64,000 nucleotides of DNA from Roseibacillus persicicus (GTDB taxonomy: Bacteria; Verrucomicrobiota; Verrucomicrobiia; Verrucomicrobiales; Akkermansiaceae), in assembly GCF_014651675.1 (NCBI RefSeq), contig NZ_BMXI01000012.1:1-64000 (forward strand). The letters run 5' to 3'. Under the pieces are notes generated by a model. It saw only the letters and a list, made by a program, of their open reading frames with translations, had not been told where the DNA came from and ran no database searches. The translations under genes and the position numbers were made by a program. Shown here piece after piece: positions 54,804 through 61,205 of the stretch. Each line of letters opens with the position of its first letter. Positions within the stretch are counted from its first letter, which is position 1.

Positions 54804-54913
54804 TCTTACCTTAGATTAACGTAAGCACCAACCACTCTTCTTTGAGCAAGATCAAAACTTTTTCTCGTAGTGTTGACGATAATCAAGCAAGAGAACGAAT
54901 TGGGAACAGGACA

Positions 54914-56614
54914 ATGACTTGGCAGGCTGAAGATGAACCGGGACTTTGGGAGCAGATCCCACCGTGGGTAGGGGCACTGTGGCGAATCTTTTTAAGAGTA
55001 TCGCTCGTCGCCCTCGTGCTCGCGATCCTCGTCGGGGTTGGCTACTGGGTGATGGCCTCCCGCTACCAGATGAAGGAGGTGGTCTCCATGCCGGAGAGAA
55101 CCCTGCTCTTGGATCGCACTGGCAAAGAGCTGGCAGCCATTCACGGCTCACGTCGACGTCTCATCACCCGCTCGGAGATCCCCAACCACCTCGTCAAAGC
55201 CCTGACCACGCGTGAGGACAAGGATTTCTTTAAGCACGGAGGCGTGCACCTGCGCGGGGTTGCTCGAGCCACGTTGCGCAACCTCACCGATCGCAGGGTC
55301 AGCCAGGGTGCCTCCACAATCACGATGCAGTTGGCTCGCAACACCTTCGAGCTGAGACAAATGTCACTTCATCGCAAACTCTTGGAGATGGCCATCGCCT
55401 TCCGGATCGAGGCCAATTACTCCAAGGACGAGATTCTAACAGCCTATCTCAACCGGATTTATTTTGGCTCCGGAGCTTTCGGCATCGAGCAGGCCTCCCA
55501 ATCCTATTTTGGTAAAAAGACCTCCGATCTCACCGTGCCGGAAGCGGCCCTGCTGGTGGGTATCATCCGCGCTCCACACGATTTCTCGCCCCGCAACGAC
55601 GAGGAGGCCGCCTTGCGGGAGCGGGATGAAGTTCTCAGGAGGATGGCCGATGATGGCCAGATCACCTTCGAACAACGCGACCAGTATCTCCAAGCTCCCC
55701 TGCATCTCCTTCCCCTCCGCGAGTCCCAGACGGACGCGATTCGCTGCGTGCGACGCCACCTCAACGAGTTGCTGGACAAAAACGACTTCCTTTCGGGTGG
55801 GCTCACCACCACCTCCACCATCGACCCCGAAATACAAAAGCTCGCCCGCGATGGCATCGACGAACTCGTGGCCCCGTTCCCCAACTTACAGGCCGCCCTG
55901 GTTGCCATCGAGCCTTCCAGCGGCGCAATTCGAGCGGTCATTACTGCCCGCGATCCGGACTCGTCCCAATTCAACCGGGCCTTTGATACCAGGCGCCAAT
56001 TGGGCCCGGTTTTCCAACCGTTTCTCTATGCTTTTTCAGCGGAAAGAGGTCGCCTTCCCATTCCCGACCAACCCATTCAAACCGCCCGCCAACTCCCGAA
56101 AGGCGAGATTGAACGCCTCGCGAGGCGCATCGGCTTGGGCGGTCCTTTCACCAGCGGTGACGAACTGGCCCGTGGCAACCTGCAAGCCACCCCTCTGGAG
56201 GTCGCTACCGCGCTCACCGTCCTTTCCAATGAAGGCGAGAAACCGACCACCTACCTCGTCCAGAGGCTCCTTGACTCTGAAGGCGCAGTCCTATTCGAGC
56301 AAAAGCCCTCCGCAAAGCTGGTGCTCGATTCCTTCGCCGCAGAAAGTCCCTTCGACATCACGAAAAAGCGAACTTGGTCCGCGCTCAACCACCCGGCCAA
56401 CGACTTGTGGGCCCTGCACAGCGGAGAAGAACTGGCGGTCGCTCTGTGGCTGGGATTCGACGACCCCGCCGACCTCCCCAGCGCGGATTTGCTAGAGAAT
56501 GGCGCCTCGGCCCTGGTCAGCGCCCTCTCCCGCATCGCCACTGTGCAAGCCGAGGAGCAGGCCGCTGAGGAAGCAGCGCAAAAGGCGGCTTTGGAATTCG
56601 AGTCTACAAACTAA
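54914..56614 (+). CDS. PBP1A-like glycosyltransferase with degenerate transpeptidase domain
   Basis: About 566 residues from the ATG at 54914; a TTG at 54842 is in frame. One membrane helix precedes a GT51 peptidoglycan glycosyltransferase domain with its motifs intact: 'TREDKDFFKHGG' (catalytic Glu), 'QGASTITMQLARN', 'RKLLEMAIAFRIE' and 'LNRIYFGSGAFGIEQASQSY'. It should polymerise lipid II. The C-terminal half aligns with a PBP1A transpeptidase ('LQAALVAIEPSSGAIRAVI', 'LWLGFDDP') but the active site is lost: SxxK is GPVFQPF (56003-56023), the SxN region is missing, and KTG reads KKRTW (56363-56377). Cross-linking activity is therefore unlikely. DUF58 follows 85 bases later. Confidence 0.85.
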   Translation: MTWQAEDEPGLWEQIPPWVGALWRIFLRVSLVALVLAILVGVGYWVMASRYQMKEVVSMPERTLLLDRTGKELAAIHGSRRRLITRSEIPNHLVKALTTREDKDFFKHGGVHLRGVARATLRNLTDRRVSQGASTITMQLARNTFELRQMSLHRKLLEMAIAFRIEANYSKDEILTAYLNRIYFGSGAFGIEQASQSYFGKKTSDLTVPEAALLVGIIRAPHDFSPRNDEEAALRERDEVLRRMADDGQITFEQRDQYLQAPLHLLPLRESQTDAIRCVRRHLNELLDKNDFLSGGLTTTSTIDPEIQKLARDGIDELVAPFPNLQAALVAIEPSSGAIRAVITARDPDSSQFNRAFDTRRQLGPVFQPFLYAFSAERGRLPIPDQPIQTARQLPKGEIERLARRIGLGGPFTSGDELARGNLQATPLEVATALTVLSNEGEKPTTYLVQRLLDSEGAVLFEQKPSAKLVLDSFAAESPFDITKKRTWSALNHPANDLWALHSGEELAVALWLGFDDPADLPSADLLENGASALVSALSRIATVQAEEQAAEEAAQKAALEFESTN

Positions 56615-56699: not shown

Positions 56700-57593
56700 T
56701 TGACCGAACCCGACGACATCGAAGAGATCATGGCCCGTGTCCGACGCTTGGAGCTGCGGGCGAAGCGACTGGTGAAAGAAACTTTTGCGGGTGACTACCA
56801 TTCCTCGTTCAAGGGTCAGGGCCTGGATTTCGACGAGTTCCGCGAGTACCAGCACGGAGACGAAATTCGTTTCATCGATTGGAACGTGACTGCCCGGCTG
56901 GGGACGCCCTTTATTCGGAAGTTCCGCGAGGAGCGCGAACTCTCGGCCGTCATTGCAGTGGATATCTCCGCCTCCATGGACTACGGCTCGGTGCGCTTGT
57001 CGAAGCGTGAGCTCGCGGCGGAAATCACGGCCCTCATCGCCTTTTCAGCCCGTGACAATGGCGACAAGGTGGGACTGCTCCTCTTTGCCAATGAGCCTGT
57101 GCTCTATCTTCCCCCGGCGAAAGGGACGAAGCACATCCTGCGCTGCATCCGGGAGATTCTAGCCACCCCGGCACCCGCTGGAGCGGTGAACTTCCCCCTA
57201 GCCACCAAGGTCATGATGAAAGCCATCCGGCAAAAGTCGCTGGTCTTTCTGGTGTCTGACTTCATCGGGGCCGACTTTTCCAAATCCATTGCCACCCTTT
57301 CGCAAAAACACGACCTGGTCGCCTTACGCATCTTTGACCCTGTCGAACGGGAGCTGCCCTCGGTCGGAAAGGTCACTCTCATCGACCCCGAGACCGGCTT
57401 CGAGCGAGTGGTGAATACTTCCAACAGCAACGTGCGAATGGGATTTGCAAAATTGACCCGACGCCATCGCGAGGGAGTGCTGAAGATTTTCAAACGCTAC
57501 GACATCGACTTCGCTTCCCTCGCAACCGACGAAGACCCCTTCAAAGCCATGCACGGGCTTTTTCAACGACGCTCAAAACGGAAGAACGCATGA
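56700..57593 (+). CDS. DUF58 domain protein, Bat operon
   Basis: A 297-residue cytoplasmic protein with a TTG start (ATG at 56730 possible). It carries the DUF58 signature 'FREYQHGDEIRFIDWNVTAR' and a von Willebrand-like fold starting 'SAVIAVDISASMDYG', whose DxSxS is a metal-site motif. DUF58 proteins usually lie directly after moxR, an AAA+ ATPase gene, but no moxR precedes this one. Its stop overlaps the next start by 4 bases, so it belongs to the five-gene Bat run. Such operons are linked to stress and aerotolerance in Bacteroides and to envelope integrity elsewhere. Confidence 0.9.
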   Translation: MTEPDDIEEIMARVRRLELRAKRLVKETFAGDYHSSFKGQGLDFDEFREYQHGDEIRFIDWNVTARLGTPFIRKFREERELSAVIAVDISASMDYGSVRLSKRELAAEITALIAFSARDNGDKVGLLLFANEPVLYLPPAKGTKHILRCIREILATPAPAGAVNFPLATKVMMKAIRQKSLVFLVSDFIGADFSKSIATLSQKHDLVALRIFDPVERELPSVGKVTLIDPETGFERVVNTSNSNVRMGFAKLTRRHREGVLKIFKRYDIDFASLATDEDPFKAMHGLFQRRSKRKNA

Positions 57594-58246
57594 GAAGAGA
57601 AGCGAAGAGGCGTCTCCTTGACGCAAGGCGGTGGGGATACGTGTTGGCGGCATCCATGGGCTTGGCTTGGTTGCCGGTGGGAGCGCAAGAAGGCCTATCG
57701 CCCGTCGCCGAGCAACCCGAGAGTCCTTCTCTGCCGGTGGAACTCATTGACCCCTCCCCCCACCTTCCCGGCCTACCCGGTTGGGTCATGCTGCTATTGA
57801 TTGGGATAGCCCTAGCCATCGCGGCCGGGGTCGTGGCCCTCGTGATTCACCTCAGCCGCAATAACGAAACTACCCTCACCCACCGTCAAAGCCCTTTCCA
57901 ATTTGCCCTCCAGCAACTCGAGTCTTTTCGGGCTTTGCCAGAGAACACCCCTCTGGCCGAAATAACGACTCGAATCTCTCTCGCCCTGCGGGGCTATCTT
58001 GCGGCATCAAAGTCGGATTCCGCGCTCTATCAGACCCGCGAGGAATTCCTAACAGACGAAGAGCGGCTGCGTCACGTTGAAGAACCCGTCCGCAGCCAAA
58101 CCGCAGATTTTCTCGCCGAACTCTCCTCCCTGCAATACGCCCCTCCTACCAGCGATCCGGAAGAAGTGACAAAGCTCATCGACCAAGGCATCCGAATCCT
58201 CCACAACCTAGCCGAACCTAGCCCCTCGCCAGCCGATCATGCTTGA
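57590..58246 (+). CDS. DUF4381-like membrane protein of the Bat operon
   Basis: A 218-residue protein with an N-terminal signal or anchor region, a Pro-rich periplasmic stretch, one strong membrane helix ('WVMLLLIGIALAIAAGVVAL') and a cytoplasmic domain of about 120 residues ('FALQQLESFRALPENTPLAE', 'RISLALRGYLAASKSDSALY'). Position and layout match DUF4381-type proteins between DUF58 and BatA genes. It overlaps DUF58 by 4 bases and batA by 8 bases, which shows tight coupling. Confidence 0.75.
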   Translation: MRREAKRRLLDARRWGYVLAASMGLAWLPVGAQEGLSPVAEQPESPSLPVELIDPSPHLPGLPGWVMLLLIGIALAIAAGVVALVIHLSRNNETTLTHRQSPFQFALQQLESFRALPENTPLAEITTRISLALRGYLAASKSDSALYQTREEFLTDEERLRHVEEPVRSQTADFLAELSSLQYAPPTSDPEEVTKLIDQGIRILHNLAEPSPSPADHA

Positions 58247-59243
58247 ATTTTTTCAAAAGCTCAGCTTCGCCGCTCCCTTTTGGTTTGTTGGATTGTTAGT
58301 CATTCCGGCACTCTGGTTCTTGCAGCGTCGGGAAGGGGCTAAGTCGTCGATAGCCTTCTCGTCTCTTTCGATTCTAGGCTCCCTTGGCTCGAAGCCAAAG
58401 CTCCGCCCCGGAGGACTCTCCGCCCTCCTTCTTTCGCTCGCGCTGGCTCTCTGCTTTGTCGCCTTGGCCCGACCTCAGCACCGCGAAACCTTCACCGCCC
58501 GCAAGGCTTCGGGCATCGACATTTTGCTGACTCTCGACCTCTCGGAATCGATGAACATCCGTGACTTTCTCCCTCCCCAAGCCCGACGAACCATCCCGCG
58601 GATCAGCGCTGCCAAACTCGTGCTCAAGCCCTTCATCCGCCACCGTCCCAATGATCGGATGGGGCTGGTGATCTTCTCGGGGCAGCCCTATCCCGTCTGC
58701 CCCCTCACGCTGGACCACGACTGGTTGCAAGAGTCCATCGAGCGGGTTCAGATCAACGACATCACCGAACAAGGCACGGCCATCGGGTCCGCAATCGCAG
58801 CGGCAGCCACGCGCTTGGACGCCCGGGATTCCAAATCCAAAATCATTGTTCTAATCACTGACGGAGCATCCAACTCAGGCAAACTGTCCCCCAAACAAGC
58901 CGCTGAACTCGCTGCCGAACTAGGCATCAAAATCTACACCATCGCCATCGGAACCGAAGATGGACGGGTTGGCCGTAACGTGATGTCGATTCCCCGCCAG
59001 GAATTCGATGTGGAGACCCTACAGGAAATCGCGAGAGTGACCGGTGGAGAATTCTTCCGCGCCAAGAACTTCGAAGCTCTGGAAGAGACTTTTTCGAGCA
59101 TTGATAAACTAGAAAAATCCGAAGCCCGAGTCTCCAGCACAGTTCAAGAAACTGACTTTTATCCGTGGGTGTGCGGACTTGCCGCACTCCTGGCCTTTGC
59201 CGCCTATGTGGTGCACGCCATCGCTCTTCCTCCCCAACCCTAA
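58239..59243 (+). CDS. batA: BatA-type von Willebrand factor A membrane protein
   Basis: A 334-residue protein. Two N-terminal membrane helices ('FWFVGLLVIPALWFL' and 'LSALLLSLALALCFVALARP') precede a VWA domain with the metal-ion site DLSES in 'GIDILLTLDLSESMNIRDF', the Thr in 'EQGTAIGSAIAAAATRL' and the Asp in 'IVLITDGASNSG'. A last helix ('PWVCGLAALLAFAAYVVH') anchors the C terminus. BatA and BatB are predicted to form a complex in the inner membrane. The next VWA gene starts 12 bases later. Confidence 0.9.
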   Translation: MLEFFQKLSFAAPFWFVGLLVIPALWFLQRREGAKSSIAFSSLSILGSLGSKPKLRPGGLSALLLSLALALCFVALARPQHRETFTARKASGIDILLTLDLSESMNIRDFLPPQARRTIPRISAAKLVLKPFIRHRPNDRMGLVIFSGQPYPVCPLTLDHDWLQESIERVQINDITEQGTAIGSAIAAAATRLDARDSKSKIIVLITDGASNSGKLSPKQAAELAAELGIKIYTIAIGTEDGRVGRNVMSIPRQEFDVETLQEIARVTGGEFFRAKNFEALEETFSSIDKLEKSEARVSSTVQETDFYPWVCGLAALLAFAAYVVHAIALPPQP

Positions 59244-59255
59244 CAGCAGATTGAC

Positions 59256-61205
59256 ATGACTCTCGCCGAACCTGCCTTCCTGTTCTTTCTTCTCCTAGTC
59301 CCGCTCCTCGCGCTTGGTGCTTGGCTGGCAGACCGCCAGCGGAGGGTTGCTTGGCAGAGCTTGGTCGCCCCCAGACTGCGCCGCAAATTGGCCGCCCCTG
59401 CTTCCCCTCTGGGCCGCTGGCTTTCCCTGGGCTGCGGATTGATTGGTCTTTGTTTATTGGTGGTAACCCTCGCCCAACCCATCGCCGGCGAGGTGGAAAC
59501 CACCTCCCAGGTGCGCGGCCGCAATATCATCATCGCAGTCGACGCTTCCCGCTCCATGCTGGTGAGGGACGTCGCGCCGGATCGGCTGAACGCAGCCAAG
59601 ACGGCAGTCTACGAGCTACTTGAACACTTTCCCAACGACCGCATTGGCCTTCTCGCCTTTGCCGGCAGCGCTTCTCTACAAGCCCCTCTGACCATCGACC
59701 ACAATGCCCTTCGGGAGACCCTCGATCAACTCGACGAAACGAACGTCCCGTCGGGTGGTTCCAACCTCGCGGACGCCATCAATCTCGCAACCAAAACCTT
59801 CAAAGAAACCGGCCAACGCACTCACGGTCTCATCGTCATCTCCGACGGAGAACTCCATGAGGGAGAGCTCGAGGATGCCTCCTTCGATGCTCGGCAAGAA
59901 GGCGTCTTTATCGTGACCATTGGGGTCGGAACCTTGGAGGGCGACTTTGTCCCCGACCCCGAGGAGACCGATGGACGCTTTCGTGATCGCAGTGGCAGAC
60001 CGGTCTTATCTCGACTCAATCCAGCCCCATTACGAACCCTCGCCGGAGATACCGGAGGCCTTTATCTCGAGGGAGTGAGCGGAGACTTTACAAAAAAAAT
60101 TGAAACCGTGATCAGTCGGCTCGACGCTTTTGAAGATGAGGGTCGAGTTCAGAAGCGTCCCATCCCCCGCTTTCAATGGTTTCTCATCCCAGCCATGCTC
60201 TTTATGATAGCCAGCCTCCTCCTCCGCTTCCTTTGGGTGCCAGCCCGCCCCCGCGCGGTTACAGCCACCCCAACCACCACACTCTTGGTGTTAATCGCAT
60301 TGTTTGGAGCCTCCCCGGAGAGTTCCGCCTGGAACAATCCTTTGGAAGGATTTTTTGGCTCGCGAGCCTTGAAAAAAGGAGACACCGCAAAAGCATTGGA
60401 ACACTTTGAAAAGGCCGCCGAAGACGCCTCCCCAGAAGAACTGGCCCGCATCCGCTACGGTCAAGGAGCAGCCAGTTATCGCGCCGGAAATTATGAAAAG
60501 GCCGCCGATGCCTTTGCGGATGCACTTCTAAGCAAGGAATCAAGCCTGCAGCGCGATGCTTACAGCCAACTCGCCAACACCCTTTACCACCGGGCAATGT
60601 CCCCCGACAGTAGCGACGGCATCCCATTGGAAGAACGAATCGACCTGATGGAAGATGCTCTGGAGCACTACGATTCCGCATTGGAAATTGATTCCAAGCA
60701 CAAGGCTTCCACTCAAAACCGAAAGGCCACCGAACAAGCCCTTGAACAACTGAAACAAGTCCAACAGCAGCAGCAGGAACAGCAAGAACAAGAGCAACAA
60801 GAATCCGGCGAGGAGGGAGAAGAGGAAGAGGGCGAGCCCCAAGAGTCCGATCAACAAGGAGAGAACGGAGAGAATCAAGAAGGAGAACAAGGCGAGGAAG
60901 AAGACGGCGAGGAAGGCGAACAAGACGGCGAAGGCCAAGAAGGTGAAGAAGGAGAGCAAGATGAAAATGGCAACGGCCAGGAGGAGGGCGAAGAGGATGG
61001 TCAAGACGGAGAGCAGCAGTCGGGACAAGAGGGCCAGGAAGAAGGCCAACAAAACCAAGCTCAGCAAAGCCAGCAAGGACCAGCCCCACGGGAAGATGAG
61101 ACCGCCGAGGAATTTGCCCGCCGCATTCTGGAGGAAAATGCTGACTTTCAAAAAGACGCGCTGCGCAAACGGGGACGCCAGGCAGCCCCGACCAAGGATT
61201 GGTAA
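59256..61205 (+). CDS. batB: BatB/BatC-type VWA-TPR fusion with acidic tail
   Basis: A 649-residue fusion. The BatB part has two N-terminal helices, a VWA domain with the metal site DASRS in 'NIIIAVDASRSMLVRDVAP', and a third helix ('WFLIPAMLFMIASLLLRFL'). A further hydrophobic stretch precedes a BatC-like TPR part ('ALEHFEKAAEDASPEELARI', 'AASYRAGNYEKAADAFADAL'). A tail of about 110 residues made almost only of Glu, Gln, Gly, Asp and Asn (about 60760-61080) follows, and the C terminus turns basic. The acidic tail is typical of BatC-like proteins and is probably disordered. Confidence 0.9.
   Translation: MTLAEPAFLFFLLLVPLLALGAWLADRQRRVAWQSLVAPRLRRKLAAPASPLGRWLSLGCGLIGLCLLVVTLAQPIAGEVETTSQVRGRNIIIAVDASRSMLVRDVAPDRLNAAKTAVYELLEHFPNDRIGLLAFAGSASLQAPLTIDHNALRETLDQLDETNVPSGGSNLADAINLATKTFKETGQRTHGLIVISDGELHEGELEDASFDARQEGVFIVTIGVGTLEGDFVPDPEETDGRFRDRSGRPVLSRLNPAPLRTLAGDTGGLYLEGVSGDFTKKIETVISRLDAFEDEGRVQKRPIPRFQWFLIPAMLFMIASLLLRFLWVPARPRAVTATPTTTLLVLIALFGASPESSAWNNPLEGFFGSRALKKGDTAKALEHFEKAAEDASPEELARIRYGQGAASYRAGNYEKAADAFADALLSKESSLQRDAYSQLANTLYHRAMSPDSSDGIPLEERIDLMEDALEHYDSALEIDSKHKASTQNRKATEQALEQLKQVQQQQQEQQEQEQQESGEEGEEEEGEPQESDQQGENGENQEGEQGEEEDGEEGEQDGEGQEGEEGEQDENGNGQEEGEEDGQDGEQQSGQEGQEEGQQNQAQQSQQGPAPREDETAEEFARRILEENADFQKDALRKRGRQAAPTKDW

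Follow-up and report, generated by a model that had tools for sequence, protein, structure and literature searches.

Class A penicillin-binding proteins (PBPs) are usually seen as a polymerase coupled to a cross-linker. In the stretch of Roseibacillus persicicus DNA analyzed here (64,000 nucleotides, referred to as the window), a gene for a PBP1A-like protein raises the question of what remains of such an enzyme when its transpeptidase (TP) half has lost the catalytic motifs, and allows one to ask what a TP domain gives to a polymerase besides catalysis. The mechanical open reading frame covers 54842-56614 on the plus strand, with a TTG at 54842; the ATG at 54914 was preferred because the orthologues share an M[ST]W start. 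The features of the gene are as follows.

54914..56614, plus strand: gene for a predicted GT51 polymerase with a non-catalytic TP-like domain, 566 aa; ATG start fixed by orthologues.
54977..55039, plus strand: N-terminal transmembrane helix, residues 22-42; hydropathy maximum and a long helix in the AlphaFold2 model.
55121..55645, plus strand: GT51 domain with catalytic Glu101 and Glu158 intact; PF00912.
55790..56467, plus strand: degenerate transpeptidase (PF00905) domain, 226 aa; Pfam, span comparison, AlphaFold2 and Foldseek.
56003..56023, plus strand: former SxxK site, now GPVFQPF, with Ser replaced by Pro365 and Lys by Gln368; alignment.
56054..56083, plus strand: approximate junction at which the canonical SxN-bearing segment is missing; alignment with canonical paralogues.
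56375..56383, plus strand: former KTG site, now Trp-Ser-Ala (WSA) within TWSALNHPANDLW; alignment.

The glycosyltransferase (GT) half has all that is expected of a class A enzyme. The membrane anchor at the N-terminus of the 566-aa protein was found both by hydropathy and as a helix of the AlphaFold2 model, and the GT51 domain is complete (PF00912 Transgly match of 1.2e-59 in Pfam). The catalytic residues Glu101, in EDKDFFKHGG, and Glu158, in RKLLE, are present together with the GASTITMQ and NRIYFG motifs, and both glutamates are invariant in all 51 distinct orthologue sequences. A first reading made from the sequence only had called the GT51 motifs complete, which the analysis confirms, and the protein is predicted to polymerise lipid II.

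To assess the TP half, the canonical PBP1A of the window genome (G000:C1, 796 aa, with SLFK, SRN and KTG) was used as reference for the motif alignment. At the catalytic SxxK site the window protein carries P365 and Q368; the SxN segment is deleted relative to the canonical paralogues; and WSA takes the place of KTG within TWSALNHPANDLW, after which the domain closes with the usual ALWLGFDDP. The TP span is trimmed to 226 aa, compared to 300-344 aa in the canonical paralogues, and its PF00905 match is marginal (1e-4 with the whole protein, 6e-6 with the domain alone). These are the three losses that the sequence-only reading had described, and the alignments extend them to the entire orthologous family. 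None of the 51 distinct sequences has Lys at the Lys site (of the 50 that are complete, 34 have Glu), and 15 of them still have Ser at the Ser site. In most, the KTG box either reads GATGS or has disappeared; the orthologue copies aligned with canonical paralogues have no SxN segment, and the TP region of the set is as a rule shortened. A KTG string found in orthologues (ETKTGA) was considered as the real KTG box and rejected, as it is located in an N-terminal beta strand.

Two findings would have spoken against a dead domain. Firstly, an orthologue with intact SxxK or KTG was sought and none occurs among the 51 sequences; a sequencing or assembly artefact was rejected since the same state is found in three other congeneric species (63-72% identity) as well as in these 51. 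Secondly, the orthologue alignment contains no conserved Ser/Lys pair anywhere in the TP-like domain that could have replaced the original one, and no Lys column above 62%; substitute residues were also looked for, and no Cys or His column exceeds 66% in this domain. Since the motifs that define a transpeptidase are gone, this class-A-derived product does not warrant the label of bifunctional PBP and, judged from its sequence, should not be counted as a penicillin target.

The distribution of the gene was analyzed at increasing distances from the window genome. A protein search in 58 genomes (that of the window and relatives) showed that most genera of the family have an orthologue, usually 540-650 aa long, and a profile built from the dead domain alone gave a strong match (E <= 1e-43) in 113 of the 145 family genomes searched. 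At least 11 of the 19 genomes of genus g3 carry a divergent form of the protein, roughly 600-640 aa long; SxxK, SxN and KTG are all missing from the two g3 copies examined. The gene was not found in genera g4, g5, g6 and g15, which have small genomes, or in six g12 assemblies, and it is therefore not essential everywhere. Outside the family, the phylum sample (195 genomes) yielded no such gene and the order sample (142 genomes) a single one, in G186 (contig C500, L157). This copy is 63% identical to the nearest copies within the family and comes from an assembly that is 3% contaminated and 77% complete; it is probably misbinned, horizontal transfer being the alternative.

AlphaFold2 was used to predict the fold of the dead domain, with the window protein aligned to named PBPs as input and orthologues from the family genomes left out. 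Over the full length of the protein the mean pLDDT is 81; the dead domain modelled by itself gives a compact TP fold with a pLDDT of 90.2 and a pTM of 0.90. When the predicted model of the isolated domain was searched with Foldseek, the TP domain of Streptococcus pneumoniae PBP1b matched with a TMq of up to 0.84 and PonA1 with 0.81, and all 50 PDB matches listed were class A PBPs; neither the family profiles nor Foldseek matched another family or fold. The PF00905 fold is thus faint by sequence and plain by predicted structure, and in the model it survives although the part carrying SxN is gone. That the fold was kept and the gene not truncated had been proposed from the sequence and is borne out by the model.

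In a tree of GT domains, the 29 copies examined form one clade (support 94/95), apart from canonical PBP1A and from a second degenerate lineage; some outgroup rows of this tree are non-GT51 ORFs with very long branches, and its root and deep branch order were left unused. Selection on the C-terminal half, a check proposed with the first reading, proved to be purifying and close to that on the GT half. In close pairs, omega (NG86) ranges from 0.03 to 0.29 for the dead domain and from 0.03 to 0.27 for the GT domain, single values being rough as synonymous distances are high in many pairs. The values are 0.051 and 0.037, respectively, for L143/L145 and 0.034 and 0.044 for L100/L127, and no pair suggests a lack of constraint. 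Two sets of residues are conserved in the domain. G364, G407, G421, W499, W512, G514 and D516 are common to canonical PBPs. E377, R378, T390, R405 and R420 are specific to the group, canonical PBPs carrying other or variable residues at these positions, and so is an Asp at position 417, where the window protein has Glu. Such a gain of conserved residues would not be expected of a domain in mere decay.

The immediate upstream neighbour of the gene, on the same strand, is canonical PBP1A at 16 of 29 loci (8 genera), and at 14 of these 16 tandem loci a plausible start is found 8-112 nt past the PBP1A stop. In G027 the two genes are 2.6 kb apart, and genera g1 (that of the window), g3, g9 and g11 have the gene at a site separate from PBP1A. 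The window and g3 have a common neighbourhood of TPR genes upstream of the gene (clusters 12, 13 and 31), which supports counting the diverged g3 copies as orthologues. The single clade, together with the tandem loci, leads us to infer that a PBP1A-type gene was duplicated early in the family. The same loss is conserved across the family, often beside a normal copy, and for this reason the dead half probably serves some other purpose now.

Two other features of these neighbourhoods were observed. Two genes for HtrA-like trypsin/PDZ proteases lie divergently upstream of the PBP1A/dead-TP pair (L083-L103; 10-11 loci, 6 genera), and these proteases might control the two synthases. In the window, positions 56700-61205, directly downstream of the gene, encode a DUF58 protein and two VWA proteins, the second with TPR, forming a Bat-type (aerotolerance-like) cluster that was not seen beside the gene in the other genomes compared.

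On balance, we lean towards a GT-only peptidoglycan polymerase derived from PBP1A, in which the former TP would serve as a scaffold or docking domain, cross-linking being left to PBP1A and class B PBPs. According to this mechanism, an early duplicate of a PBP1A-type gene would have shed the catalytic Lys, the cleft wall that bears SxN, and the KTG strand, and retained the membrane anchor, the full GT51 active site and a compact TP fold under selection. The protein would polymerise lipid II into uncross-linked strands beside canonical PBP1A, and these strands would then be cross-linked by PBP1A and class B PBPs. The dead domain would act as a rigid periplasmic surface that positions the GT domain and partner synthases, and would not be a substrate-binding sensor. 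The sequence-only reading had suggested that it may be a regulatory or binding module. The missing SxN wall and KTG speak against binding of stem peptides, which makes a structural or partner-docking role the more likely one. A stronger version, in which the former TP is a new allosteric or docking domain and the family a dedicated partner subunit that forms an obligate pair with PBP1A through the new conserved Arg and Thr residues and sets the ratio of polymerisation to cross-linking, can be put forward only tentatively.

A regulatory subunit is the first alternative. The protein would form a heterodimer with PBP1A via the dead TP and mainly activate or restrain its partner, its own GT activity being secondary. 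The close spacing with PBP1A in 8 genera and the arginines and Thr390 newly conserved on the dead domain point in this direction; however, the GT catalytic residues, needless for a pure regulator, are invariant in 51 of 51 sequences, and several genera carry the gene apart from PBP1A. We regard this explanation as unlikely, if a serious one. The group-specific residues T390, E377, R378, R405 and R420, absent from canonical PBPs, could also be taken as signs that the domain has gained another catalytic or ligand-binding activity, but the missing Ser/Lys pair, the failure of any Cys or His column there to exceed 66% and the absence of a match to any other family or fold make this quite improbable. 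A beta-lactam-insensitive polymerase, in which the TP was discarded so that strand synthesis goes on while penicillins block the other PBPs, agrees with an intact GT and with the loss of any acylatable Ser-Lys pair. This is nevertheless a very improbable reading: the loss is fixed across a broad family with no sign of antibiotic pressure, uncross-linked strands by themselves would not rescue the cell, and a folded domain was kept where plain deletion would have been enough. Finally, neutral decay, with the TP half as a leftover in the course of being lost, is hardly credible: sequence conservation is lower in the TP half than in the GT half (mean identity of 0.47 vs 0.56), but the selection test contradicts this reading with a GT-like omega far below 1, and the single ancient clade, the invariant G, W and D, the new family-specific residues and the confident, compact predicted fold all stand against it.

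A GT-only polymerase would not be short of cross-linking partners in the window genome, which keeps the canonical class A PBP (G000:C1) and three more PF00905 proteins of class B size (628-756 aa). It also carries a member of a second class A lineage found across the order, the P0002 type (L109, G000:C19:70889-73417; other copies L176-L204). In this lineage Thr replaces the catalytic Ser in 30 of 30 sequences and Lys is missing from 29 of 30 (TxxL/F, with one TxxK); SxN is mostly SK[IVL], KTG is mostly kept and so is the GT51 motif. This type is apparently the sole GT51 match in G006, G007 and G019. The window genome has three class A PBPs, of which two, by their motifs, seem to be TP-dead. 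An extra class A-like PBP of 707 aa in G003:C4 (L112), in which GFSGSS stands where KTG is expected and SKL replaces SxN, is possibly another altered transpeptidase.

Compared to known systems, the window protein resembles class A PBPs of the PBP1A type (PF00912 plus PF00905; TIGR02074) in its transmembrane helix, its complete GT51 domain and a TP fold that extends to the last strand, and in many genomes its gene is directly paired with one of that type; it differs by the lack of SxxK, SxN and KTG and by a TP region about 85 residues shorter. Its TIGR02074 score is 318 bits for a cut-off of 508.75, which the canonical paralogue also misses, narrowly (481). With monofunctional GT51 enzymes (MtgA/MGT, TIGR02070) it shares the predicted role of polymerase only, but it also has a TP-like domain (about 226 aa) that is predicted to fold and is under selection, and it reaches 118.9 bits against a cut-off of 182.65. 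Like the canonical paralogue, it falls below every NCBIfam cut-off listed. The P0002-type lineage of the same order likewise keeps GT51 and lacks SxxK; it forms a separate clade (100/96), however, with a full-length TP and KTG mostly retained. The literature searched, which did not extend to most subscription journals or to any bioRxiv preprint, yielded no example of a class A PBP in which a dead TP is natural and conserved.

That GT and TP activities are separable follows from engineered precedents. In MRSA, PBP2 with an engineered inactive TP is complemented by PBP2a, the GT of PBP2 still being required (PMC7617827); in Clostridioides difficile PBP1, septum synthesis needs GT and not TP, and growth needs both (PMC12539705). 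The cooperation of Staphylococcus aureus PBP2 (GT) with PBP2a (TP), in which the GT of one PBP works with the TP of another (PMC7617827), is a parallel to the arrangement proposed here, except that native PBP2 has an active TP and its TP-dead form was engineered, whereas here the TP-dead form is natural and fixed. One consequence is that PBP counts based on GT51/PBP1A annotation overestimate the targets of beta-lactams. Combined, an uncoupled class A PBP has become fixed across the family, in many cases in tandem with a coupled copy, and a second, order-level lineage has also lost the Ser-Lys pair. As far as its sequence tells, the protein is a polymerase that derives from class A PBPs and carries a transpeptidase domain devoid of catalysis, distinct from both the bifunctional PBPs and the MtgA-type enzymes.
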